Of a stretch of DNA of 20,035 nt, positions 1-12,866 are shown one piece after another. Source of the stretch: a virus; IMG/VR virus record IMGVR_UViG_3300022227_000049, positions 1 to 20,035 of that record; one strand, written 5' to 3'. The position numbers and the translations under genes are program-made. The notes below the pieces were generated by a model, which saw nothing but the letters and a program-made list of their open reading frames with translations, was not told the origin of the DNA and searched no databases. Position 1 is the first letter of the stretch. Each line of letters begins with the position of its first letter.

Positions 1-3000
1 GCCAGTAGCGTGTTCAATGTGAAAGAGGCCATTTGGCGAAGCCGTGCCAATCCCCACGTTGCCACTGGTGTCCATCACGAAGTCGTTGCCAGTTACGCCA
101 GCATCTGCACTAATCTTAAATACGCCATCACCGCCCTCATACCCCATTGAGAAAATGCCATTGCCATTGTTCTCCCAAATATTAAACACACTCATTCCAG
201 CACTGCCATTGTTATGGGTTATCTGTGCGCCACTTCCCTTTATGTCGAGGTCAGTGCCAGGCGATGACTCGCCAATCCCCACGTTGCCACCAGAGTCGAT
301 ACGCATGGCTTCTGCTGCATTTGTAGTATAAATCAAAGCATTATCAAGGTGACTATACTCTATCTTCCCAACGTCAGCATCTGCATCACCAAACAAAATC
401 CCCTGCACCGCTGTCCCCCCTGATGGAGCAGCAAATTGGATGTAGGAGTTTGTATTACCTTCTTCAATGATAATTCGTGCTGCAGCGTCAAAAGCAGCAC
501 CGCTGGAGTTAGCATTTGTTATATGAAGAATGCTTTGCGGCGAGGCTTCACCAATGCCTACGTTGCCACTGTTCTCGATCCTCATTACTGATGTGCCACC
601 GACCCTAAAATCTGCCACGTAATTTGCGTCAGATGAGTTTGCGCCAGTGTTATCAACGAGGAATCCATAAGGGTCTGTTGCGTATGAATTGTATACCCTA
701 AGACCTACCTCGGCAGTTGCGTGTGCGATGTCCAATCCTGCGGCGGGGCTTGCCGTGCCAATCCCAACTTTGCCACTATCATCAATACGCATTGCAGTTG
801 CGCCATTTGTACCAAAATACATATCATCTACATTGTGGTCGTAGCGTATCCATCCCATCGCATTGCTATCACTGTCACCAAAGAGAAGACCACCGAAAGA
901 TGTCGTACCGCTACCCAAAAATATCTGCGTATTAGCACTGTTCTCTACAGTAATGTAAGCCTCGCTCGGGATTGTTGCGCCACTGCTTGCCTTAAAAACG
1001 TGGAGCAGATTTTCAGGGGCTGTGCCAATCCCCACGTTGCCTGAAGAATCAATTGTTAAGTGAGGACCTGTATTATTAGTATTGAAATAAAGTTGTTCAT
1101 CTGAACCATAAAACATCCCTGCATGATTATTATCCGAGCCTCTACCAAACATTATTCCCGAATCAGTATCATCTGGTGTTAGAATATTTATGTAAGCATT
1201 ACCATCTTTTTCAATAACAAGTGGTGCATCTGATACTCCAGTTACTGAACCTGCACTTGCTTTAAATACGTGTAAAGTGTTATCAGGGACTGAGGTGCCG
1301 ATGCCGACGTTGGCATCACCAGAGATTGTGAATAACGTGTTTGTGCCATCGTGATCCTCTACTGCAAAAGCCCTGTCAGCAGATGTTGAACCACCCCTCA
1401 CTCTAAACCCATAATTTCGCCCATCAGTTGCCTCTGTGTTTTGTATTTGTGCGATCCAATCATTGTCTGCTTCCCCTGCTACTTCAAGTAGGTATGATGG
1501 ATCCGACATGCCAATCCCCACGTTGCCACTTGGCATTGTAACTTGTCCATCACCGCGAACAGAGAAATAGCTACTGCTATTAGTCTGATCAGCAACATCA
1601 AATGCGCCGTCAGAACTATTTGTTCCAGCGTGAATCCTCACCCCATAGCTCTGTCCAGCAGTTGCGTGGTCATTGTGAAACTCTGCGACATAATCATTCG
1701 CAATCGCTTTTTCAACTGCAAGAGCATTGGTGAATGACGTTGTGCCAATCCCCACGTTGCCACTTGAGTTGATGCGCATACGTTCTGCGAGCGTGGAACT
1801 TCCATCTGGCGATGTGCTGAACACCAATCTGCCAGGCATATCCGTTGTGCCACCGGGCGTTCCGTCAACATACGCCAATATAGATGCGGCATTTTGGAAC
1901 GACGTGTGATACCCCTTGAACGATAGACCGCCCAACAACTCACCGCTTGCAACGGCTGTTGGTGACGCTTCTGTGCCACCTGACTTCTGGAAGACAAGGC
2001 GCATATCGTGGGCGTCCGTATTTGAATAGTCGCTCAAATACACCTCTCCATACGTGCCACTTTCCACAACATCAAACTTGCCATCTGGCGAAGCCGTGTT
2101 AATCCCCACGTTGCCACTGGAGTTGATGTGCATACGCTCAGTGCCATTAGTCCACAATGCAATGGGTGCGGCAGCAGCAGCACTCAGCACCAATCCAGCA
2201 CTCATATTAGAGTCTGCCTCAATCAATCCACTGTCTTGTATACGGCTTCCGCTTGTGGTGTATGAGCCACCATGCGCGTCGATGTTTATCGCACCAGCAT
2301 TTGCTTGCGCTCTCAATCTTCCCACCGCAGCAGTTGTGCCATTGTCGTTAATAGAGCGCATTGCGGTAATACCATCTTGATCGCTACGTGCGTCTATCAC
2401 ACCGCCACCGTCAGGCGTTGCGCCAACAGCAAAGTTGCCACCCGTAATAGTAAAAGCATTAGCACTATGGGTGAGTAGTATATTGCCAGCATTAAAATTA
2501 ACAACTCCACCACTTGCTAAAAACAAATCACTAAAGCCTGTACCGCTGGCTCCCAATGCTCCACCATCATCTGCATTGCTTAAAATTGCTCCCGTGACAG
2601 TAAGCGCACCACTTGCAAGCGTTCCAGCAAATGTCGTAGCAGTAGTCCCTGTTGCAATACTCATCACTGTCGTGTCGTAATCGTTCTTTATCGTGACATC
2701 ATTCGTGCTACCCTGACCCGTAAGGATAAGCCCTTCTGTGGCTGTGTATCCCATCGCTGCGTTGTCGTTAATAGATGTGTCGCCTGTGGCTTCTACCGTT
2801 GTTCCTGTGATTACACCACCAGCAGTCAAAGACGTTGTTAAAGTGATATCATCAACAAACAGGTTTGCCCATCGCACACCTGTGGTGCCGAGATCATCTG
2901 TGGAGTCTAAATCACTAACAATGTTAGAACCAGATGTAATACCACCCGTATGCACAGATGCTGCTGTAAAGGTCGCCACGCCCGTAACACCCAATGTCTC

Positions 3001-3321
3001 GCTAATGGTCTGAGCACCCGTAACAATCAGCGTATCGGCACTTTCATCCCACAGCATAGACTTGCCACTCGTATCACCAAAGAACTTTACATCGACACCT
3101 ACATTATCAACACCCGTTGTCAATGTGCCGGTATGTACTTTAGCACCAGAGATGGTCTGAGCACCGTCTTTGGTGACAATACCGTCACTGGCATCCGAGA
3201 CATTTGCTGCGTCGATCTCTCCATTTACCAATGCCAACACCGTTGTCCAGTTGCTGTTCCAGTTAGATGCTGACGGAATAGCGCCAGCAACAAATGAATA
3301 TGTCTGTGATATTGCTCCCAT
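1..3321 (-). CDS. Long modular tail fibre protein, C-terminus cut off by the window edge
   Basis: The frame is open from an ATG at 3321 to position 1 (1107 codons, no stop), so the true protein is longer. AGGAAGG lies just upstream, overlapping the end of the previous gene 5 nt away. The N-terminus (residues 1-40, with PSASNWNSNWTTVLALVNG) looks like the virion-attachment head of phage fibres. Residues about 77-103 carry the fibre-type word FFGDTSGKSMLWDESAD, and a later LGTTGVRWANLFVDD is another common fibre word. From residue 403 the protein is built of nine modules of about 70-118 residues, each ending in a variant of MRIDSSGNVGIGTASP. The composition is rich in G, S, T, N and D, as in trimeric beta-structured fibres. 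Inference: this is the receptor-binding fibre. In known relatives such modules often precede a C-terminal self-cleaving chaperone (peptidase S74 type), which would lie off-window and is not seen here. Confidence 0.88.
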   Translation of the reverse strand, partial: MGAISQTYSFVAGAIPSASNWNSNWTTVLALVNGEIDAANVSDASDGIVTKDGAQTISGAKVHTGTLTTGVDNVGVDVKFFGDTSGKSMLWDESADTLIVTGAQTISETLGVTGVATFTAASVHTGGITSGSNIVSDLDSTDDLGTTGVRWANLFVDDITLTTSLTAGGVITGTTVEATGDTSINDNAAMGYTATEGLILTGQGSTNDVTIKNDYDTTVMSIATGTTATTFAGTLASGALTVTGAILSNADDGGALGASGTGFSDLFLASGGVVNFNAGNILLTHSANAFTITGGNFAVGATPDGGGVIDARSDQDGITAMRSINDNGTTAAVGRLRAQANAGAINIDAHGGSYTTSGSRIQDSGLIEADSNMSAGLVLSAAAAAPIALWTNGTERMHINSSGNVGINTASPDGKFDVVESGTYGEVYLSDYSNTDAHDMRLVFQKSGGTEASPTAVASGELLGGLSFKGYHTSFQNAASILAYVDGTPGGTTDMPGRLVFSTSPDGSSTLAERMRINSSGNVGIGTTSFTNALAVEKAIANDYVAEFHNDHATAGQSYGVRIHAGTNSSDGAFDVADQTNSSSYFSVRGDGQVTMPSGNVGIGMSDPSYLLEVAGEADNDWIAQIQNTEATDGRNYGFRVRGGSTSADRAFAVEDHDGTNTLFTISGDANVGIGTSVPDNTLHVFKASAGSVTGVSDAPLVIEKDGNAYINILTPDDTDSGIMFGRGSDNNHAGMFYGSDEQLYFNTNNTGPHLTIDSSGNVGIGTAPENLLHVFKASSGATIPSEAYITVENSANTQIFLGSGTTSFGGLLFGDSDSNAMGWIRYDHNVDDMYFGTNGATAMRIDDSGKVGIGTASPAAGLDIAHATAEVGLRVYNSYATDPYGFLVDNTGANSSDANYVADFRVGGTSVMRIENSGNVGIGEASPQSILHITNANSSGAAFDAAARIIIEEGNTNSYIQFAAPSGGTAVQGILFGDADADVGKIEYSHLDNALIYTTNAAEAMRIDSGGNVGIGESSPGTDLDIKGSGAQITHNNGSAGMSVFNIWENNGNGIFSMGYEGGDGVFKISADAGVTGNDFVMDTSGNVGIGTASPNGLFHIEHATG
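46..2115 (-). repeat. Nine in-frame fibre modules ending in GNVGIG
   Basis: On the plus strand the coded GNVGI[GN] word starts at 46, 271, 550, 757, 1024, 1297, 1510, 1744 and 2098. Spacings are 225, 279, 207, 267, 273, 213, 234 and 354 nt, all multiples of three, so the reading frame is kept. Within modules a second recurring pattern is seen three times, of the form FGDxDxxxxGxIxYxH followed by FxTN and MRID. The modules share motifs but little nucleotide identity outside the GNVGIG word, which suggests old duplication or module swapping rather than recent expansion. Confidence 0.9.
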
Positions 3322-3326
3322 AGCGT

Positions 3327-5189
3327 TTACCTTCCTATTCCACCAATAGTGGTAAGGGTATCATCCCTAACAGTTTTCAGTTCTATGCGTTCTCCAAATC
3401 GAGAAATAGCACTACCAAAATCTATCCCCCTTGCCATCTCTTCGGCAGGGATATCATCAATTAACTTTTGTACAGATGCTTCAAAAGCCCTTCGCGATTT
3501 TGCACTAATAGCACCAAGTTGCACTGCTATTTTTCCCATTATACGCGGAGAAGTTAGTGGAATAGCTAATAGCATGGTAGATGGGCCACCAAGTAATGGG
3601 ACTAAAGCAAGACCACCAGCAAAGGAACGTTGCTGCAACAATCTTGACGGGCCTGTTTGCAGTAACCCTTGAGACAATGACAGTCCTGCTGCCTGTGCTC
3701 CCAATTTCTCACCTGTGCGCTTTTCTAACTCTTCCAATGCTTCTCGACGTTTTTTTCCTGTAAACGTATCACCAAACAACCCCCCGGTCAGGCCTTCTAT
3801 TGCCGCATCTGATGTTTTACCACCTTTTCCTGCTCGGACAGTAGCAAGCATCTGCTCTACCACTTCAGTTTGTTCTATAAAATCTTGGGCAAATTTCTCA
3901 TACCCTTCAACTTTATCACCCAATTCCTTCCGCAAAATTTTACGTATATCTGTCAACAATGATTGCGATTGCTTGCCCCTTGTCAATGGTTGTATTTCAT
4001 CAATTTTACTTTGTACCTGGTGCATAAGTTTCTGCACAGCAACAGGAGAATTGTCTGTTTGCTGCATCACTTTTGCGATAACATCGGCAACAGCACTTCT
4101 TTCTGCGTCCATCAACGATGGAAAATCACTGGTATCTATCGCTTTCTTGTTTTTAAAAGCGCCAGGCGTTCGCTGGGTAGTAGATATGATAACTTCACCG
4201 TCAGGCCCAAAAAGATCCACTTTTTTTCCTGCTGTAATGCCAAATCGTGGACTTTCTGCTCTGGATAAAACCAGTTTCTGAACACTCTCTAAATCGATTG
4301 GATTGTCGGGATCTTTAAATTTGAATTTTGCAACATTGGCTTCTGCTGTAAGCCTTCGTTCTTCAACTAAATCTGCTAATCCATCTATAACAGCTTGTGC
4401 TACATTTTCCAAGTCCTGCGGGTTATCAAAACCCTTTCTAAAAGCGGTAAGACCATCTGTGTCATTTTTGTTTGCAATATCAAACGCTTCGTCTAATGCC
4501 TTCCCTTTCCCGCCTGTTGTAAGTTCAAATGTTCCTTTCGCAATGTTTTTTGCAGTTTTACCTATTTTACTGCCAGCAATTTTACCAAAACGTCCAACAT
4601 TCTTTAATACGCCCTTCGTCGGTGTCGCCATATCAGCTAAAATACCCAACACATCTCCCTGCTCGGTACGTTCACCGATGTCAAACATAGAAGCAACGCC
4701 TCCACCTAACTGTTGTCGCCCTTGTGGAGTAGTTGCAGCTTCCACAATATTGCCTACACCACCGATCATACCAGGCACATCCAAAAAACTTTTGAGCGCA
4801 TCTACCGACGCATTGCCAACCTGCTCAACAGAAGGTGCCTGTTCTGGCAACAATGAAATATCGCTTGCTCGGCTTGCTATTCCCTGAACTGCTTGCATAT
4901 TTTCCTGCGCAGATTTCTTTACTGATTCAGGGTTAAAAGGATTCGGAATTAGACCCCCTGACCCTATATTACTCAACGCATTGATTACATTGCTTTGTAG
5001 ATCCGAACCCAGTTTCGTTGCTCCAAATTGCGGCTGTCCTGCCGGAATATCTTCACCAGCAGCAAGTCGACTCCCCGTAAGACTGCTTTCAGCACGTTGT
5101 CGTTGTTCTTCTGTTAATTGAGTACCAGAAGATGATGGAACGAAACCGTCATCTAATAATCTTTGCCGTTGTTCTTCTGTAAGTTGCAT
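3327..5189 (-). CDS. Probable internal virion (ejection) protein, 620 aa
   Basis: No confident family assignment. It lies between the repeat and 414-aa proteins and the tail fibre, where short-tailed phages carry ejection proteins. ATG at 5189 directly abuts the TAA of the preceding gene, with an AAAGGGGA ribosome site overlapping that gene's end, so the two are probably translationally coupled. The N-terminus has QLTEEQRQR twice, 22 residues apart (from residue 2). It continues with a Gly/Ala/Ser-rich region with amphipathic stretches (about 60-220), a charged helical middle (about 220-460), and a Gly/Leu/Pro-rich hydrophobic stretch at 521-562 (FAGGLALVPLLGG, then MLLAIPLTSP) that could insert in a membrane. 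The end is an amphipathic basic and acidic tail. A hydrophobic patch in a mostly helical virion protein suits a protein ejected into the envelope, but that is inference. No lysozyme or transglycosylase motif was seen. Confidence 0.62.
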   Translation of the reverse strand: MQLTEEQRQRLLDDGFVPSSSGTQLTEEQRQRAESSLTGSRLAAGEDIPAGQPQFGATKLGSDLQSNVINALSNIGSGGLIPNPFNPESVKKSAQENMQAVQGIASRASDISLLPEQAPSVEQVGNASVDALKSFLDVPGMIGGVGNIVEAATTPQGRQQLGGGVASMFDIGERTEQGDVLGILADMATPTKGVLKNVGRFGKIAGSKIGKTAKNIAKGTFELTTGGKGKALDEAFDIANKNDTDGLTAFRKGFDNPQDLENVAQAVIDGLADLVEERRLTAEANVAKFKFKDPDNPIDLESVQKLVLSRAESPRFGITAGKKVDLFGPDGEVIISTTQRTPGAFKNKKAIDTSDFPSLMDAERSAVADVIAKVMQQTDNSPVAVQKLMHQVQSKIDEIQPLTRGKQSQSLLTDIRKILRKELGDKVEGYEKFAQDFIEQTEVVEQMLATVRAGKGGKTSDAAIEGLTGGLFGDTFTGKKRREALEELEKRTGEKLGAQAAGLSLSQGLLQTGPSRLLQQRSFAGGLALVPLLGGPSTMLLAIPLTSPRIMGKIAVQLGAISAKSRRAFEASVQKLIDDIPAEEMARGIDFGSAISRFGERIELKTVRDDTLTTIGGIGR

Positions 5190-6434
5190 TTATAATCCCC
5201 TTTCATTAAATTCAGCTACTGCATCTTCATCTCCATCTAATGCACGTTGTTTTATTTCGTTCTCATCCATCGTTTTATAATCAAGGGGTGGTTCATCCGA
5301 AGAAGAAGAGTCATCATCAAGACCAGGAACAAATGTATAATCTGAAAAGATATCTACATCTAACCCACGCTTTTTTGCTCTTTTTTGAAACTGTGATAAT
5401 CTTTTTTCATGCAAAGCTACTTGCCCATCATAGACACCTTTTGTGGTATTAAGAATCTCCTGCCGTTGAGCCTTAGTCAACCTGCGTGACGAATTGAAGT
5501 TTTCAATAATTTGCGTTGCAAATGCCGATATAGGCCCCGTTGCTTCAACCGTTCCAAATTCTGTTTCTCTTACAACACTGTCTGGATCGTGCATTTTCAT
5601 AAATGCAAAAATAAGTGCTATATCATCAAACCCACTTTCGCCTTTTGATAATTGCACAACTTTAGTCATACTGTCCTGGGCTGATAGCATTTTTTCAGAA
5701 CTTCTATCAAACTCGCCAATCAACTTGTCTTCTGCTTCTAATTGTCTTTCGCTGACACCACGAGATAAAGCATCTCTCTTCAAGGCTGCTCTATTTTCTT
5801 TCATCTCTTCAAGTTCTTGCACCACATCCATTGCTGATATCGCTTTGGCTCGGCCAATAAGAGCATCAAAATCTACCGACGGTTTTTCTGCTGACTTTCT
5901 TATATCCCGAACTTCAGTTTGTATTTTTGTGTCTACAGCAATTCTTGCTGCATCGCGTTGGGCTTTGTTGATCCGAGTCAGAACATCTAACCCTTGACCT
6001 TGCTGCCCTGCTGTTGCCAATGCTGTCGCTTCTTCTTTTGTTACTGGTCTACCAGGCTCTTCTCCCAATATCGTAGTAATAGGAGCAAAAGAACGTCCCT
6101 GTGTCCCTTCTATAAATGCGTCTGTAGCAGACTGCTCTTCAAGAATCTCTGCATCGCGCTGGGCTTTGTTGATCCGAGAAATTTCTGTTTGCTGTTCTTT
6201 GTCCTTAAACTCTTGAATTGATTCACTAATTATCGCTTCAAAGTCTGAGTCGGGGCGCGTCATAGACTTCTCCGTAACAGCCATACGCACTTCTTGCGGC
6301 AAGCCAGCAAGAAGTTGTCTCTTTCGCGCTTCTTCTTCTTGCCTACGTTGTGTGCGCGTCAAAGAATTTCTTTGCGTAGCCGTAGTGATGCCACTACCTA
6401 TCGATCCAAGAACATCTAAAACTCCGAGTCCCAT
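5190..6434 (-). CDS. Probable internal virion protein with DPDSVVRETEF motif, 414 aa
   Basis: The protein is strongly helical, charged and Gln-rich. Residues about 265-297 contain FAFMKMHDPDSVVRETEF, a word I associate with large internal or ejection-type proteins of many environmental phages (usual form: F.K..DPgSVVREgE). This is the main support for the call. The segment RINKAQRDA occurs twice, 67 residues apart, and is nearly identical at DNA level (5950-5976 and 6151-6177). The N-terminus (GLGVLDVLGSIGSGITTATQR) is small and hydrophobic. The C-terminus has an acidic/serine patch (DDDSSSSDEPP). The ATG at 6434 follows the previous stop by 34 nt, with GGAG about 8 nt upstream. The TAA abuts the next ATG. 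Role in the virion is inferred from motif and position; no enzymatic residues are recognised. Confidence 0.66.
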   Translation of the reverse strand: MGLGVLDVLGSIGSGITTATQRNSLTRTQRRQEEEARKRQLLAGLPQEVRMAVTEKSMTRPDSDFEAIISESIQEFKDKEQQTEISRINKAQRDAEILEEQSATDAFIEGTQGRSFAPITTILGEEPGRPVTKEEATALATAGQQGQGLDVLTRINKAQRDAARIAVDTKIQTEVRDIRKSAEKPSVDFDALIGRAKAISAMDVVQELEEMKENRAALKRDALSRGVSERQLEAEDKLIGEFDRSSEKMLSAQDSMTKVVQLSKGESGFDDIALIFAFMKMHDPDSVVRETEFGTVEATGPISAFATQIIENFNSSRRLTKAQRQEILNTTKGVYDGQVALHEKRLSQFQKRAKKRGLDVDIFSDYTFVPGLDDDSSSSDEPPLDYKTMDENEIKQRALDGDEDAVAEFNERGL

Positions 6435-6468: not shown

Positions 6469-9400
6469 TTACTTAGGTTTGAATCCACCTTGCGGATACC
6501 ATCCAGGACCACTTGTCTGACCGTTTTCCCAACCACCTGGCGGACCGCGGAAGTTTGGATCACCCAAAGGAATACCACCAACACTAAATCCTCCAATACG
6601 ATCAATCAATGAGTTTAGTAACGAACCACCAATACTATCTTTTAAATCACCCGTAGACGTTAAAGCCAATTCAGCCAACGCTTTGATATTTGCTGCCTGT
6701 CTGTCGGCATTTGCTTGGGCGATTTCTGCCTGGATACGTTCCTGGTCTACATCTAACCGTCTACTACCCAAAACCTGGTCTAAGTCCTGGCCGCGCTGTG
6801 TTGCCATCAACAGAGCATTCGATACGCCCTGATTAATGTCTTGACCACGTTGCGTCACATCTTGCGCACCTTGCTGAATAAGCTGACTGATATCTTGACC
6901 ACGTGATATAACGTCCTGACCACGTGCTGTTACATCCTGACCCCTTTGCGCAACACCCTGCACACCTTCTTGGATCAACTGGTTAATATCTTGACCCCTT
7001 GCCGTTACATCTTGACCACGACCTGCTATGATGCGTTGCAAGTCCTGACCCCTTGTAGCGACAGATTGTCCAATGTCTTGACCACGTGCTGCGATGTCTT
7101 GATCGCGCCCTGCTGTGTAATATTGCAAGTCCTGGTTGCGCTCTGCAATTGCTCTATTGATGTCTTGACCACGACCCGTAATGTCCTGACCACGCTGAGA
7201 CACACCGGCTTGTAAATCTCCCAAAGCCCTTTGGACATCTTGCCCACGTTGCACGACACCTGCCTGTAATTCCTGCCCTGCTCGTGTGACATCTTGCCCA
7301 CGCTGAGATACTCCCGCTTGCAACTCTCCAAGTGCTCGTGAGACATCTTGACCACGTTGTGAAACACCTGCCTGTAATTCTTGTCCCGCACGAGTAACAT
7401 CTTGACCACGCTGGGTAACACCTGCTTGCAATTCGGACTGAAGACGTGACAAGTCCTGCCCACGTTGTGAAACACCTGCCTGTAATTCCTGCCCTGCACG
7501 GGTAACATCTTGCCCACGCTGGGATACTCCCGCTTGCAACTCTCCAAGTGCTCGTGAGACATCTTGACCACGTTGTCCAAGACCCGTCTGCAATTCCTGA
7601 CCACGCGATGTGATGTCCTGACCACGTTGTGAAACACCTGCTTGTAATTCACCCAACAACTGGTTGATATCTTGACCACGTTGTGCCGTTCCTGCTGTAA
7701 GCTCTTGACCTGCACGGGTAACGTCTTGACCACGTTGTGAAACACCTGCCTGTAGCTCAGACTGTAGACGTGACAAGTCCTGACCACGCTGTCCAAGACC
7801 CGTCTGCAATTCCTGACCACGCGATGTGATGTCCTGACCACGTTGTGAAACACCTGCTTGTAATTCACCCAACAACTGGTTGATGTCTTGTCCACGTTGC
7901 GATACACCTGCTTGTAGACCTGACTGCACCAGAGCACTTTGCAAGCCCCCAAGATCGAGAGCCTGCCCAACGGCACGGTCTCTACGTGCTTCCTGATTGG
8001 CAGAAAGAGCAAGGTCTTCACGTCCCTGTGCTTCACGTATCTTATTCTCTACAGCAATTCTGTCACCATCACGCAAGATGCCCTGACGTTGCAAGTCTTC
8101 AAGGCGTTGGTCTAACTGTGCTTGCTGGCGAATGTCTAAGTCCTGTTGCTCAAGTGCTGTTGAAGAAGCAAAAGGATCGTTGTTTAAAAAAGACTCTAAC
8201 CGTGTCTGTAGTGCTCCTAAGACACCAGGATTGGCAAGTTGTGTTGCATCTGTCGGTAAGGCACCAATTCCCTGCCTAGCTCTTATCGTTGTTGTCGGTG
8301 CTCCAACATCATCGGGCTTGCTGAAAACATCTTGCCTTGCACGTACCGTTGCTGACTGTTTTGCATCTATCGGTAAAGCACCAACTCCCTGCCTGCCTCT
8401 TATCGTTGTTGTCGGTGCTCCAACATCATCGGGGTTGTCGAAAACATCTTGCCTTGCACGTACCGTTGCTGACTGTTTTGCAGCATAGGGAGCATCAAAG
8501 ATGCCTAATCGATCTCCTATATCTACTGACCGATTAAAACTGTCTATGCCACCATGCCTGTTTGCCATGCTTTTAAAGTCTTCATCGCTAAATCCGGTAA
8601 TCGGCTTGTCGATAGCATTTGCTTCTAAGATGCGCTGTCTCATATCGTCAGTTAATGGTGCTGTTGGCAAGGCATCCAAACCAATACGGTCACCAACATT
8701 TACTGTCTGGCTTGCAGCATCTGGCGCGATCTTGCTGGCTTGCAACCTGTCACCAACTTCTATGTCGCTTACCGATGCTCCTGGCAAGCCACCCAACGGG
8801 TTCAATTCTCGCAACTTACCCGTTGTAGAATTGAATATCGGAATATCTGGTGATCCTACAGCACTGATGGGAGCAAGCGCACCGCTTGTTGTGCCTGTTG
8901 GGAATGTTTCGCGCCCTGGTAATGCTCCTACTGGTGCTCCTGGCAATCCTCCCTGTCTTACTCGTGCTACGCCAGCACTTCCCTTTACACGATCAAGATT
9001 GCTTCCTTCAAATGGACGCAGGTCTGCTGGGGGTATATACGTAGTAAATTCTCCACCAGGCCCTTGCGTTCCCCAAGGTGTATTAAGACCAGGGAAGAAA
9101 GGGGGTGGACCAAAGGGGGGTAGCTCAGGTTGCCCTTGCCCACCACCAGGAGGCTGACCACCAGGAGGCGTTGCAGATGTATCACCACTGGTATCTATAG
9201 GAAAATCTACCAATCCTTCATTGCTGCGCCATTTCAGAAATTCAGTCAAGGTCATGTTGGGAGGAGGCGTTGCACCGCCAGGGGGTTGCCCTTGACCCTG
9301 ACCTGGGGGTTGCCCTTGACCCTGACCTAGGGGAGCGCCGCTTGTTTCATTTAGCGGCATGGTAAATTGGGGATTGTTGGCGATCCACTCCTGTTGCTGT

Positions 9401-11331
9401 TGAGGAGACATCTTGTCAAAACTTCCTTTGAAGTTGGCTGGCAGTTCCTTCCAGTTGACTTGCGTGGGGTTGCTGGGGTCATTTGGATTGTTGTGCCAAG
9501 TGACATTGGGATCGTCTGGTCCTCCTCCTGTGCCACCAGCATTAGAACCATAAAAACCGGGTCGGATGTAGTCAAGTGGCAACCCTGTTTCGGGATGAAA
9601 ACCTGGGGCCGTCTGGTTGGGGTCATAGTCGTCAATCTCATCAGGATCCACCCACTTTCCGTCCCACCAAACCAGACCTTCATCATCTGGTCCTTCGCTA
9701 CCTACCTGACTCCAATGCAGCCCCGGCCCTGCCATGGGCACCTGGGTGCCGGCGAGTGACTCGTAAAGTGAATTGTCTTGTGTACCACCCTTAACCCACT
9801 GCCACACACCATTAACAAGACGTCGCACCATTCCTGGTGGTTGACCTGGTGGTTGACCTGGTGGTTGACCTGGTGGTTGACCTGGTGGTAGCCCCTGGTC
9901 TTCCGGTGGTCGGATGCCGGGGTCTCCCACGGGATTGCCATCAGCGTCCAGGCCCGTGGTCTCGACGCCCGGGGCTGCTCCGTTCCATCCGATAGGATGC
10001 CAAATGGGATGGTTAAGCCCTTCTCTTTCCATTCTTGTATGGTAGTCTGCGTTGCTTTCTCCTGCATAAGGGACTGGTGATCTCCCAGCCTCCACTTCAT
10101 CTAAAAAATCAGGCATTACTTCGCCTGCACGGGGATGACCTGCTGGATATCGCTGACCACCGGGAGGCTGTTGACCACCAGGAGGCTGACCACTGCCTGG
10201 TTGATCGGAATAATGACCAGGCAATATTTCTCGCAGATACGGATCTGCAAAAGGTATGCGAGACGCATCGGGATCAGGAGTCCATCCGATAGGATGATAA
10301 ATGGGATGGTTAAGCCCCAATCTTTCCATTCTTACGTGGTAGTCTGCGTTGCTTTCTCCTGGATAAGGAGCCTTCTCGTATGGCGTAGGCTGACCATATG
10401 TACCAGAAGGCTGAGCCGCCAGCCAATCACTCATCCAGTTATCCGGCCATCCACTGGTATCAACAGGCTGCTGACCACCGGGAGGCTGACCACCGGGTGG
10501 TTGACCTGCAGGTTTGGTCGAGACAGGTAATCCTTCATTGCTTTCATTAGGGCCTACACCCAATACACCTGTCGCTCCACCCTGCGCTAATCGTATCGCT
10601 CGTGCCAGATTGCTTTCATTGGATGGATTGCCGTATGTCTTAGGGCCTACACCCAATACACCTGTTGCGCCCCCCTGTGCTAATCGTATCGCTCGTGCCA
10701 GATTGCTTTCATTGGATGGATTGCCGTATGTCTTAGGGCCTACACCCAAACCTGCCAATCGGCTTTGTATCAAAGCTTGCCGTTCAGGGTCATTTAGATC
10801 AGCTTGTTTCTGCGCTTGCCACCTTGCGTCAGCTTGGTTTTTTTCTTCCTGCGTCATATAACCTGATGCAACGTCAGGATCTTTGATGTCAGTTGTCCTA
10901 ACCTGGTGCTGTGGCTGTTGTACCTGCTTGTTCTGATTTGCCGCAAAGATGATGAAGTCGTTAAAGTCCATCTTCCCGTCATTGTTCAGGTCGCCCACCT
11001 GCTCAAAAGATGTGGGAGTCTGCCCAGGTTGCAAAGGTTGCTGTGCTGTCTGGTTTGCCAATGGGTTTTGTTGCCCAGGCGCAGATGGCATCGGTGGTGC
11101 AGGTGGTGGTGGCGGGGGTGGTGGGGGCGCAGGTGCTTGCTGTGGAGCAGGAGCAGGTTGCTGTGCAGGAGCAGGGTGCTGACCAATGGAATATTGGTAA
11201 TTCTGCGGTCCGGGCTGCTGACCAATGGAATATTGGTAATTCTGCGGTCCGGGCTGCTGATACTGCTGATACTGCTGATACTGCTCACCTGTAAACCCTT
11301 TACCGCCACGTTGCTGAGTGTTGTATGCCAT
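6469..11331 (-). CDS. Giant repeat-rich virion-associated protein, 1620 aa
   Basis: Family not recognised. ATG at 11331 overlaps the nozzle gene's TAA by one base (TAATG), with AGGGG about 7 nt upstream. Order: Gln/Tyr/Pro-rich N-terminus with a doubled 13-residue unit (26-51); polyproline (about 53-80); one dockerin/EF-hand-like loop DLNNDGKMDFND (114-125); a tandem 31-residue repeat (195-256); Gly/Pro/Gln-rich linkers with a 28-residue motif copied twice and a GQPP run (about 290-760); a region with recurring GDR[LI] words and a tandem 39-residue repeat (951-1028); a charged helical stretch (about 1065-1138); 14 copies of an 18-residue repeat (1139-1390); an irregular RGQD array (1391-1527); and a Gly/Pro-rich C-terminus. 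No signal peptide or membrane segment is seen. Position between nozzle and fibre suggests a structural or ejected virion protein, perhaps an elongated rod. A tail appendage, needle or internal core component are all possible. Confidence 0.8.
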   Translation of the reverse strand: MAYNTQQRGGKGFTGEQYQQYQQYQQPGPQNYQYSIGQQPGPQNYQYSIGQHPAPAQQPAPAPQQAPAPPPPPPPPPAPPMPSAPGQQNPLANQTAQQPLQPGQTPTSFEQVGDLNNDGKMDFNDFIIFAANQNKQVQQPQHQVRTTDIKDPDVASGYMTQEEKNQADARWQAQKQADLNDPERQALIQSRLAGLGVGPKTYGNPSNESNLARAIRLAQGGATGVLGVGPKTYGNPSNESNLARAIRLAQGGATGVLGVGPNESNEGLPVSTKPAGQPPGGQPPGGQQPVDTSGWPDNWMSDWLAAQPSGTYGQPTPYEKAPYPGESNADYHVRMERLGLNHPIYHPIGWTPDPDASRIPFADPYLREILPGHYSDQPGSGQPPGGQQPPGGQRYPAGHPRAGEVMPDFLDEVEAGRSPVPYAGESNADYHTRMEREGLNHPIWHPIGWNGAAPGVETTGLDADGNPVGDPGIRPPEDQGLPPGQPPGQPPGQPPGQPPGMVRRLVNGVWQWVKGGTQDNSLYESLAGTQVPMAGPGLHWSQVGSEGPDDEGLVWWDGKWVDPDEIDDYDPNQTAPGFHPETGLPLDYIRPGFYGSNAGGTGGGPDDPNVTWHNNPNDPSNPTQVNWKELPANFKGSFDKMSPQQQQEWIANNPQFTMPLNETSGAPLGQGQGQPPGQGQGQPPGGATPPPNMTLTEFLKWRSNEGLVDFPIDTSGDTSATPPGGQPPGGGQGQPELPPFGPPPFFPGLNTPWGTQGPGGEFTTYIPPADLRPFEGSNLDRVKGSAGVARVRQGGLPGAPVGALPGRETFPTGTTSGALAPISAVGSPDIPIFNSTTGKLRELNPLGGLPGASVSDIEVGDRLQASKIAPDAASQTVNVGDRIGLDALPTAPLTDDMRQRILEANAIDKPITGFSDEDFKSMANRHGGIDSFNRSVDIGDRLGIFDAPYAAKQSATVRARQDVFDNPDDVGAPTTTIRGRQGVGALPIDAKQSATVRARQDVFSKPDDVGAPTTTIRARQGIGALPTDATQLANPGVLGALQTRLESFLNNDPFASSTALEQQDLDIRQQAQLDQRLEDLQRQGILRDGDRIAVENKIREAQGREDLALSANQEARRDRAVGQALDLGGLQSALVQSGLQAGVSQRGQDINQLLGELQAGVSQRGQDITSRGQELQTGLGQRGQDLSRLQSELQAGVSQRGQDVTRAGQELTAGTAQRGQDINQLLGELQAGVSQRGQDITSRGQELQTGLGQRGQDVSRALGELQAGVSQRGQDVTRAGQELQAGVSQRGQDLSRLQSELQAGVTQRGQDVTRAGQELQAGVSQRGQDVSRALGELQAGVSQRGQDVTRAGQELQAGVVQRGQDVQRALGDLQAGVSQRGQDITGRGQDINRAIAERNQDLQYYTAGRDQDIAARGQDIGQSVATRGQDLQRIIAGRGQDVTARGQDINQLIQEGVQGVAQRGQDVTARGQDVISRGQDISQLIQQGAQDVTQRGQDINQGVSNALLMATQRGQDLDQVLGSRRLDVDQERIQAEIAQANADRQAANIKALAELALTSTGDLKDSIGGSLLNSLIDRIGGFSVGGIPLGDPNFRGPPGGWENGQTSGPGWYPQGGFKPK
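6751..7161 (-). repeat. Irregular RGQD array with 7/11/18-residue spacing
   Basis: Continuing from the regular array, residues 1391-1527 of the 1620-aa protein carry QD-type words (RNQD, RDQD, RGQD, LDQ). The spacings of successive QD or terminal D residues are 11, 7, 11, 11, 7, 18, 7, 7, 11, 7, 18 and 11. Every spacing is 7, 11, or their sum, so the register of the upstream 18-residue (7+11) repeat is preserved although the sequence has drifted. This is what a continuous helical coat or rod would show (7 residues = 2 turns, 11 = 3 turns). Confidence 0.85.
7162..7917 (-). repeat. Fourteen tandem 54-nt (18-aa) repeats, consensus LQAGVSQRGQDVTRAGQE
   Basis: Fourteen uninterrupted units of exactly 18 codons (residues 1139-1390). 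QRGQD is invariant at unit positions 7-11. Position 1 is always Leu, position 4 always Gly and position 18 always Glu or Asp. Variation is concentrated at positions 12-17, which read NQLLG, TSRGQ, SRLQS, TRAGQ or SRALG types. There are no Cys, Trp, Tyr or Phe in the array. A higher-order period of four units (216 nt) is visible in near-exact DNA copies. Confidence 0.95.
8248..8481 (-). repeat. Tandem 117-nt (39-aa) duplication in the 1620-aa gene
   Basis: Two head-to-tail copies, transcribed 8481-8365 then 8364-8248. Each begins AKQSATVRARQDVF and continues DDVGAPTTTIR then RQG[VI]GALP. The plus-strand word cttgccttgcacgtaccg at 8331 recurs at 8448, exactly 117 nt away. High nucleotide identity indicates a fairly recent in-frame duplication. 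Confidence 0.92.
9833..9890 (-). repeat. 12-nt tandem repeat coding GQPP
   Basis: The plus-strand unit cctggtggttga is repeated four times from 9833, followed by a partial copy. It encodes a short GQPPGQPPGQPP run. The four-residue period does not fit a collagen Gly-X-Y helix, so this is more likely a flexible linker. Confidence 0.88.
9985..10365 (-). repeat. Two dispersed copies of a 28-residue motif (GESNADYH...HPIGW)
   Basis: Copies occupy 10282-10365 and 9985-10068, 297 nt (99 codons) apart. Both encode Y-x-GESNADYH, then RME, then GLNHPI and HPIGW, differing at a few positions only. The motif is well ordered (His, Trp, Tyr, acidic residues) inside otherwise low-complexity Gly/Pro/Gln linker, so it may be a small folded or binding module. 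I do not recognise it. Confidence 0.85.
10549..10749 (-). repeat. Tandem 93-nt (31-aa) repeat, two copies plus a fragment
   Basis: Copies at 10749-10657 and 10656-10564, each coding LGVGPKTYGNPSNESNLARA and then IRLAQGGATGV. A third, broken copy (LGVGP followed by NESNEG) begins at 10563. The plus-strand word agggcctacaccca occurs at 10549, 10642 and 10735, exactly 93 nt apart. The two full copies are almost identical, so the duplication is recent. Confidence 0.93.
10957..10992 (-). other. Dockerin/EF-hand-like calcium loop in the 1620-aa protein
   Basis: Residues 114-125 read DLNNDGKMDFND and are followed by FIIFAANQ. This has Asp at 1, Asn at 3, Asp at 5, Gly at 6, a hydrophobic residue at 8, Asp at 9 and Asp at 12, the classic ligand spacing of dockerin type I and EF-hand loops. 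Only one copy is present; a full dockerin has two. Calcium binding is inferred from the pattern. Confidence 0.72.
11179..11256 (-). repeat. Tandem 39-nt (13-aa) duplication near the N-terminus of the 1620-aa protein
   Basis: QPGPQNYQYSIGQ is repeated head to tail at residues 26-51 with one residue change visible at the junction to the polyproline stretch. The plus-strand word accaatggaatattggtaat occurs at 11182 and again at 11221, exactly 39 nt apart. Confidence 0.93.
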
Positions 11332-12866
11332 TATATTACCCCTGTTCCACGTTTATGCGTCTGCCCGATCTGACGATAAACACCTGTAAATTTACGGATA
11401 GAGAACTCTTCGGCAGATGTAGCATTTCGGTATTTCACCTGTATATGTGGGTCATATCCCAACAATAAACTGTCTACATTGCACACCAGAAGATCTTCAG
11501 CAGCAATGACAGATGTCCCAATCGTAAAAGTTGTCTCTATAGCATCGAATGTTCCTGACTGCACGACGACATCTGTGACTTCTGGATGACTCGGCATCGT
11601 AGCGGTAAACTCTATATCGTAATCTCCCACGATGTCTAAAGATGTCCTGCCATACAGCCACCGCTCCACTTCTGTCTCGCCCTGTGGTGCTGCCGATGAT
11701 GTCTGAAACCACGCATCTATAACATTTGCTGTTGTGCCATCGTTATCACTGAATGTGGTGGGTTCCTGATCGAAGATATATCCATCGCTGATACCGCCGG
11801 TATATGGCTTGTTGTTCACTATCGCGCAGGTGTTACGAGCAAATCCGCTCCATCGGGGATAGAAGATATTTAAGCGGTAGTTGTATACCAGAATATTATT
11901 CATCGTTGTCTGGCCGGATCCGTATGGCAGAAAAAACCATACTTCGTTGCGTGTCGGATAATCACAGGCAAATGCGTTGTTTAACGCTGATTCATTGATA
12001 TCATTCCAATATCTATCGCCATCCATACGTTCTGACAATTTCCTGCTGCTGTTACCGTCAAAGGCATAGATACCGTCTTCTCTCACATATACCTGCACTT
12101 CTCCAACTTCTGGTGTCGTAATCGTCTGTATAGAGAATGGTGCCACTGTCCCTTTTGCCTGTTTGGGAACTTTTCGGTATGGCGTTACAGAATTACCGGT
12201 AGGGACGAGAAGGTGTATGATATCGTCACCGTGTATCACTAAGAAATTGCTCATCTTCTTCAGACCCGTAACAATAGACCCTTGCTGAAAGAATGCTGTA
12301 GCATCCCATGTCTCGATGTCTGCAAGGTCGCTCCTCCATACCCTGTCTGTTCCTGACGACAAGTTTCCTGCCCATGCCCTGTTGTCCCAAAACTCCCAAT
12401 ATTTTGCTGTGGTGAATCGGCTGTTGACATCTAAGGTCTCTATATTCCCTGCTGCTGCTGTCCACTTGAAGATGATATCGCTACTTACTCCATCATGCCC
12501 AATCAATGTGCCGTTAGCGTCTGCTACTGACCACTTTTCCCCTGCTGTTATCGTTGCCGCTCCCGTCCTGGCCGTAAACCCTGTGCCTACTCCTGACGTG
12601 TCTTCATAAAAAGCACCACCCGCTATTGTCCATATCCGCTTAGTATCTGCATCAAACTTGTGCTGTCCTAAAGCATCTATCGTAGGAGTTCCAGCAATTA
12701 CAGTGTTGAATGTCGCAGATCCCGATCGTTGCCGTGCAGAACCGTCAGGGAATATCCGCACATTCTCACCATCATAGATTTCTTGCAGGTGCAAGTCATC
12801 ACTGGGCTTTGAAGCATTCCACCCATAAATCCAGGGACCATAGACATGATCTTGTCCGATGCGCAT
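11331..12866 (-). CDS. Tail nozzle / stabilisation protein (tail tubular protein B-like, P22 gp10-like role), 511 aa
   Basis: In short-tailed phages this protein assembles below the adaptor ring to form the tail nozzle and plug. The sequence is beta-rich with repeating aromatic/Gly strands suggestive of a propeller-like fold. Supporting words are an N-terminal LQEIYDGENVRIFPDGSARQ (early strand pair with conserved asparagine/arginine), VYVREDGIYAFDGNSSRKL around residue 263, and NNAFACDYPTRNEVWFFLP. These resemble the repeated 'DGiyafDG...W' blades in phage stabilisation proteins. The ATG overlaps the adaptor's TAA by one base (TAATG), and its own TAA overlaps the next ATG the same way, so three genes appear translationally coupled. 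The assignment rests on motif style plus position directly after the adaptor. It could instead be another beta-propeller tail protein, but the context makes the nozzle most likely. Confidence 0.75.
   Translation of the reverse strand: MRIGQDHVYGPWIYGWNASKPSDDLHLQEIYDGENVRIFPDGSARQRSGSATFNTVIAGTPTIDALGQHKFDADTKRIWTIAGGAFYEDTSGVGTGFTARTGAATITAGEKWSVADANGTLIGHDGVSSDIIFKWTAAAGNIETLDVNSRFTTAKYWEFWDNRAWAGNLSSGTDRVWRSDLADIETWDATAFFQQGSIVTGLKKMSNFLVIHGDDIIHLLVPTGNSVTPYRKVPKQAKGTVAPFSIQTITTPEVGEVQVYVREDGIYAFDGNSSRKLSERMDGDRYWNDINESALNNAFACDYPTRNEVWFFLPYGSGQTTMNNILVYNYRLNIFYPRWSGFARNTCAIVNNKPYTGGISDGYIFDQEPTTFSDNDGTTANVIDAWFQTSSAAPQGETEVERWLYGRTSLDIVGDYDIEFTATMPSHPEVTDVVVQSGTFDAIETTFTIGTSVIAAEDLLVCNVDSLLLGYDPHIQVKYRNATSAEEFSIRKFTGVYRQIGQTHKRGTGVI

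Follow-up and report, generated by a model that had tools for sequence, protein, structure and literature searches.

A length-variable, predicted helical repeat of 7- and 11-residue steps in a candidate ejection protein of a short-tailed phage

Background

To our knowledge, atomic detail on what forms the trans-periplasmic conduit is available for very few phages (T7 and phiX174). Gp14-type proteins are 181-240 aa long and form a hexameric channel in the outer membrane (PMC8954989), and ejected gp14 consists of two antiparallel helices and a short joining loop (PMC11784390). The H protein of phiX174 forms a decameric tube of 170 A, in which three hendecads are followed by eleven heptads and the lumen is lined with Gln, Asn and Arg (PMC7354561). 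Among coiled coils, 18/5 is a recognised helical periodicity, a straight helix having the value 3.63 (PMC4786415). Here we compare these systems with a 1620-aa protein encoded in IMG/VR virus record IMGVR_UViG_3300022227_000049. The window, that is, the whole stretch of DNA that was analysed, is 20,035 nt long.

Results

The 1620-aa ORF (6469..11331, minus strand) lies, by gene order, in the T7 gp14 / P22 gp7 slot of an ejection cassette. Its residues 1139-1390 (7162..7917, minus) form an array of 14 uninterrupted units of 18 residues, or 54 nt, with the consensus LQAGVSQRGQDVTRAGQE. QRGQD, Leu1 and Gly4 are invariant in all 14 units and position 18 is E or D in every one, just as the first-pass annotation had read them. 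The exact 54-nt period that it reported is likewise confirmed by TRF, by the unit listing and by the lag-18 identity, which is 0.63 over residues 1130-1381, whereas no lag in 2000 shuffles exceeded 0.22. TRF also detected higher-order periods of 108 and 216 nt, the latter of which is the remnant of later duplications; units 2 and 6 have the same DNA sequence. Synonymous divergence between units is near saturation (mean pS 0.69), with pN/pS of 0.34. Therefore the units are not fresh DNA copies, and the protein pattern is kept by selection. A second minus-strand frame (ORF 7026-8036) is also open over the array; we regard this as a side effect of the repeat.

Each unit splits literally into 7 + 11 residues (RGQDITS + RGQELQTGLGQ), and the periodicity of hydrophobicity has its peak at exactly 100.0 degrees per residue, or 3.60 residues per turn (power 48.9). 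The earlier arithmetic, 18 = 7+11 at 3.6 residues per turn, is thus found in the sequence itself. The 14 exact units stand as first delimited, but their end had been taken too early as the end of the array, as the pattern reaches about residue 1530. The motif Q[DE][ILVT] goes on past unit 14 up to residue 1513 with 7s and 11s in irregular order; motif spacings and phase analysis define this continuation as residues 1391-1530 (6742..7161, minus), with its faces in phase with those of the array. Over residues 1130-1530 (about 390 residues) each of the 32 distances between motifs is 7, 11 or 18, and the angular drift, when summed, stays within +/-40 degrees throughout. When face directions were computed at 100 degrees per residue and the phase was never reset, the hydrophobic direction was 52 degrees in the irregular part versus 40 degrees in the regular array, and none of 20,000 permutations was as strong. 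Gln clusters at 180-240 degrees in either part, within a Gln-rich polar face at 180-260 degrees. The other faces are Asp at 280-320 degrees, Arg near 0 and Gly around 80-120, and all five (hydrophobic, Gln, Asp, Arg, Gly) keep their directions over about 390 residues. Per 400 residues there are 82 Gln and no Lys, Pro, Phe, His, Trp or Cys at all; Gly makes up 15%, which is high for a helix. Taken together, phase and composition are as expected for a single straight amphipathic helix of about 390 residues.

AlphaFold2 was given residues 1025-1562 together with four relatives (5 sequences) and predicted, for a single chain, a near-continuous helix at modest confidence (mean pLDDT 65.6, pTM 0.23). 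The model contains one predicted helix of 152 residues (1150-1301; 7429..7884, minus) and another of 251 residues (1309-1559; 6655..7407, minus), about 228 A and 377 A long at 1.5 A per residue, with a predicted break at residues 1302-1308. Structure prediction of the array as a monomer, a check named when the repeat was first noticed, thus yields long helices. Predictors may favour helix for such sequences, and we take the model as support rather than proof. The straight helical rod proposed earlier is partly supported, by the constancy of the faces over ~390 residues and by the long predicted helices. Foldseek with the 538-residue model returned no significant match, long helices resembling many things weakly, and sequence searches of the PDB gave nothing significant.

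The array shares its periodicity and the near-straight helix with 18/5 (7+7+4) coiled coils (PMC4786415), and a hydrophobic stripe runs along it at 100 degrees per residue. Unlike them, it is Gly-rich and lysine-free with a single narrow hydrophobic stripe, and it consists of 14 exact units plus an irregular 7/11 continuation. The suggestion that the fold may be new is not supported, because 18/5 was already recognised (PMC4786415) and helices of 11+7 residues with Gln/Arg/Asn faces are present in the phiX174 H tube (PMC7354561).

The genes around the repeat are all on the minus strand. A 679-aa protein in the portal position is followed by a protein in the scaffold position, the major head protein (phrog_9953), two small genes, a 325-aa protein (phrog_8198) and a 234-aa SU10-type adaptor (Pfam PF24175; 12866..13570). 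Then come a 511-aa nozzle-like virion protein (PHROG match phrog_3287; 11331..12866), the 1620-aa protein, a 414-aa phrog_13634 protein (5190..6434), a 620-aa protein (3327..5189) and the tail fibre. The 414-aa protein is P22 gp20-like by its PHROG match and its Mx8 homologue, which has a further match to phrog_917 ('released from the phage upon host infection'). The 620-aa protein is assigned to the gp16 slot of the cassette by position only, in comparison with loci L009 and L008. In phage ct3Oc712, a P22_gp7-like protein (PF25688) is followed by a phrog_13634 protein and then by a match to a DNA transfer protein family. Gene order and the comparison with ct3Oc712 therefore put the 1620-aa protein in the place of T7 gp14 / P22 gp7, with the nozzle gene ahead of it and the gp15/gp20-like gene next in order. 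This context fits the earlier description of the product as a phage virion protein, here a putative one. The tail-fibre-like protein at positions 1-3321 contains many GNVGIGTxSP repeats and runs off the window.

Immediately upstream of the array, at about residues 1035-1138 (7918..8229, minus), alignments, AlphaFold2 and VIA-align delineate a helical hairpin with a T7 gp14-like predicted shape. It precedes the array or variable part in all same-slot relatives (11 aligned sequences), with the consensus ..LNRLG.L..GDTA...G.. and predicted helices on both sides. In the PDB, VIA-align placed T7 gp14 of the tail complex at rank 1 (101/102 residues, rmsd 4.0, Z 9.0) and gp14 after ejection at rank 3 (114/119 residues, Z 8.7), both below the level of about 13 that is decisive for helical models. 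AlphaFold2 thus predicts a hairpin where T7 gp14 (residues 25-143) has two antiparallel helices, and the structural likeness is suggestive. Foldseek found no significant match of the hairpin in the PDB or among viral models, hhalign did not detect homology of the hairpin to P22 gp7-like (P 0.25), Mx8-type (0.043) or T7 gp14 (0.51) proteins, and the Pfam family P22_gp7 has no match in the window. The protein thus shares with T7 gp14 / P22 gp7 the slot between the nozzle gene and the gp15/gp20-like gene and a predicted hairpin whose best structural match in the PDB, below the decisive level, is gp14. It differs from them in its size (1620 aa versus 181-240 aa; PMC8954989), in showing no detectable sequence homology, and in adding a 7/11 helix of about 390 residues and a PQG-rich N-terminus. 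Its assignment to the helical DNA-ejection or pilot proteins is based on function and slot and not on homology.

Relatives were collected as loci found via the head protein. Among them the gene after the nozzle gene is variable, and complete same-slot proteins are 691-1085 aa long. No array is present in three of these proteins (L017, L019 and L020; 691-724 aa). Units of 18 residues occur in L022, but with a different sequence (GRGQLGVSRDDLALRSEL), and L055 has units of 11, 18 and 29 residues; the RGQD motif is absent from both. The array is therefore not essential to the family. In L004, RGQDVTA alternates with RGQDINALIAG, and L029, L031, L034 and L056 contain long stretches that are weakly repeated. 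The 7/11 grammar recurs downstream of the hairpin in same-slot relatives whose array sequences are unrelated (lags 7/11/18/29). In five arrays that were not selected by pattern, the strongest autocorrelation lags are 18, 36, 54, 29, 25, 11, 58, 51 and 22, and of the 15 top lags, 12 shift the helical face by no more than 20 degrees, compared with 16% expected. An S74 intramolecular chaperone forms the C-terminal end of proteins in the gp7/gp14 slot or nearby at L022:11407-13935, L055:12221-15277 and L081:558-2840, and is also C-terminal at L008:6001-7002 and L077:2881-3957, in or near the same slot. Elsewhere, such domains are typically found on trimeric tail fibres.

Scanning for three RGQD motifs spaced 18 residues apart led to further viral contigs; loci found in this way are evidence for the spacings 7, 11 and 29 only and not for the 18 period. 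Their non-selected spacings are mostly 7, 11, 22 and 29. The RGQD-array protein of L080 matches phrog_4287, 'DNA ejection protein' (1e-10). That of L096 resembles gp20-slot proteins and matches phrog_2534, 'released from the phage upon host infection' (5e-16). Short RGQD 7/11/18 arrays are present in proteins resembling the gp20-like slot in L089, L093, L095 and L096, and L093, like L096, matches phrog_2534. Pfam gave weak apolipoprotein-type amphipathic repeats, below cut-off, for L080 and L083, and tblastn of these two array proteins against phage records found no match, low-complexity filtering possibly removing the repeats. Among the phage records searched, no cultured phage with an array of this kind came to light. 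A pattern scan of a genome collection returned mostly unrelated low-complexity or other-frame matches, of which L110 (a Bacteroidetes MAG) and L109 were kept as weak leads.

Two of the contigs, L002 and L113, mix RGQD with RYxTD hendecads downstream of a hairpin-like stretch. In L113 the repeat gene is preceded by an adaptor-family gene (phrog_2941) and a nozzle gene (phrog_3287), and its product matches both phrog_5158, a family of microvirus pilot proteins (2.6e-6), and phrog_4287 (1e-3). The RYxTD hendecads of L113 match the pilot protein of Dulem virus 142 at 57% over 61 residues, with nothing comparable in 200 shuffles. The microvirus motif [RK]Y.TD is thus nearly the same in a tailed phage that also carries RGQD repeats. 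The Dulem virus 142 gene (L112:1802-2848) is annotated as DNA pilot protein, and its RYxTD hendecads are nearly identical to those of L113. The window protein itself had no hit in PHROG, pilot families included. With spacings of 7, 11 and 18, it has the 11/3 + 7/2 units of a phiX174 H-type tube as a sequence pattern (cf. PMC7354561). It also shares with phiX174 H and microvirus pilot proteins a long helix of 11- and 7-residue units and a Gln-rich polar face. Which face would point inward, as the Gln/Asn/Arg lumen of H does, depends on the oligomer. In contrast to phiX174 H, it comes from a tailed dsDNA phage, it has an 18/5 alternation and not separate hendecad and heptad blocks, and its helix is about twice as long or more.

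The N-terminal two thirds of the gene (8260..11331, minus) are Pro/Gln/Gly-rich by sequence and TRF, with several tandem duplications and poly-Pro. The duplications in this gene lie at 8240-8482, 9833-9889, 10547-10749 and 11177-11260, with units of 117, 12, 93 and 39 nt that are 92-100% alike. They are more alike than the 18-residue units, and the gene therefore keeps growing by duplication. An EF-hand-like loop, DLNNDGKMDFND (10957-10992, minus), is present near the N-terminus with a poly-Pro run close by. It recurs in L004, L015, L017, L019 and L061 in surroundings that are not conserved, and in the loop of L003 Leu is replaced by Gln.

Three matches to the array were rejected. The Suprabasin GxHH repeat (PF21009) scored 41.9 bits, above the Pfam cut-off, but the array has no His in 400 residues and hence no GxHH; the profile match is taken as shared periodicity or composition only. 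Suprabasin is an animal epidermal protein. Bacterial collagen (PF15984) scored under the cut-off and was dismissed because the lag-3 identity is 0.12, with no Gly at every third residue. 'Tail protein I' of Acinetobacter phage Acibel004 was set aside as a match of composition with a different repeat, KADASALT.L. That protein (L010:2393-8834) has its own long KADASALT.L / QG array, unrelated to the window array.

Discussion

The reading that we favour, to which we give about an even chance, is that the 1620-aa protein is a greatly enlarged first ejection protein (T7 gp14 / P22 gp7 slot) of a short-tailed phage, and that its 18/5 helix is a straight rod or tube that extends the DNA channel. The 7/11 pattern is also present in pilot proteins of ssDNA phages, and the array is therefore suggested to be part of a genome-entry tube. 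Oligomerisation and a lumen are inferred. Copies of the protein would be stored in the head and would exit through the portal. At the nozzle or the outer membrane, the hairpin could then assemble into a ring like that of gp14. The arrays may pack side by side via the narrow hydrophobic stripe, with the glycines flanking it, into a straight rod or tube carrying the DNA channel onward; the Gln/Arg-rich polar face would be available to the DNA, in the manner of the H tube of phiX174. The reach of the conduit would be determined by array length. Some observations count against this reading. At full extension the helix would measure about 590 A, more than the usual periplasm. With the predicted break at 1302-1308 taken into account, the first segment would span about 228 A, close to the width of the periplasm, but this is a calculation from a low-confidence model. 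The S74 ends in L022, L055 and L081 are more typical of external trimeric fibres, and the undetected gp14/gp7 homology, the 15% Gly, the length of 1620 aa, the relatives with no array and the modest AlphaFold2 confidence also weigh against an ejection conduit.

The main rival, because S74 ends several proteins of the slot, is that the protein is an external trimeric structure, a tail needle or fibre beneath the nozzle. The array would in that case be a straight coiled coil of three chains that serves to poke or to space, and the protein would not be ejected. The gene directly follows the nozzle gene, straight coiled coils suit 18/5 stripes (PMC4786415), and the polyproline/Gly-rich N-terminus could serve as an extended spacer. 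S74, usual on trimeric fibres, ends L022 and L055 of the same slot, L081, p54 of Mx8 and gp17 of phage H6/1. However, H6/1 gp17 was annotated by its depositors as an ejection protein, and Pfam finds no S74 in the window protein. The position after the nozzle would also fit a needle of the P22 gp26 type, with neither an S74 domain nor a needle profile match in the window. Moreover, the next gene encodes a gp20-like ejection protein, RGQD-array contigs match ejection families, and the core stripe is narrow and broken by Arg and Gly, a poor core for a trimer. We consider an external rod unlikely.

We think it improbable that the array is a flexible or weakly structured Gln/Gly-rich spacer whose length drifts by tandem duplication, with no ordered rod. 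Such a spacer would be consistent with 15% Gly and 20% Gln, the modest pLDDT, the many further tandem duplications in the gene and the lack of an array in L017, L019 and L020. It is disfavoured by the phase evidence, namely the strict phase, spacings that are all 7, 11 or 18, and faces that stay constant over the irregular part; the pN/pS of 0.34, the same lags in unrelated relatives and the absence of Pro in 400 residues also speak against it. Before ejection, the ejection proteins of P22 and T7 are located near the portal, and in mature T7 the long helix of gp14 is wound around the barrel of the portal (PMC8402733, PMC11784390). By analogy, the protein could be an internal head protein whose long helices, acting as a spool or spring, pack against the portal barrel or within the DNA, with no conduit after ejection. 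This seems decidedly improbable, as it leaves the resemblance of relatives to microvirus pilot proteins unexplained, and a role in storage would leave room for a later one as a conduit. Wrapping around the portal before ejection is compatible with the conduit reading.

Conclusions

Two adjoining ejection proteins may use one helix grammar. More broadly, and with considerable doubt, we suggest that tailed dsDNA phages and ssDNA microviruses, whose genomes are unrelated, build envelope-crossing conduits from one interchangeable 7- and 11-residue helical code ([R/Q]..[D/E][I/L/V]), in which balanced 7+11 would give a straight tube of tunable length, the module being exchanged or re-invented. Gp14-type proteins have been reported as uniformly small, and the slot here holds a protein of 1620 aa. 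The strict 7/11 code, the length-variable helix and their recurrence in a microvirus pilot protein provide a sequence signature by which conduits may be recognised, and tube length, straightness and DNA-facing chemistry become directly testable.
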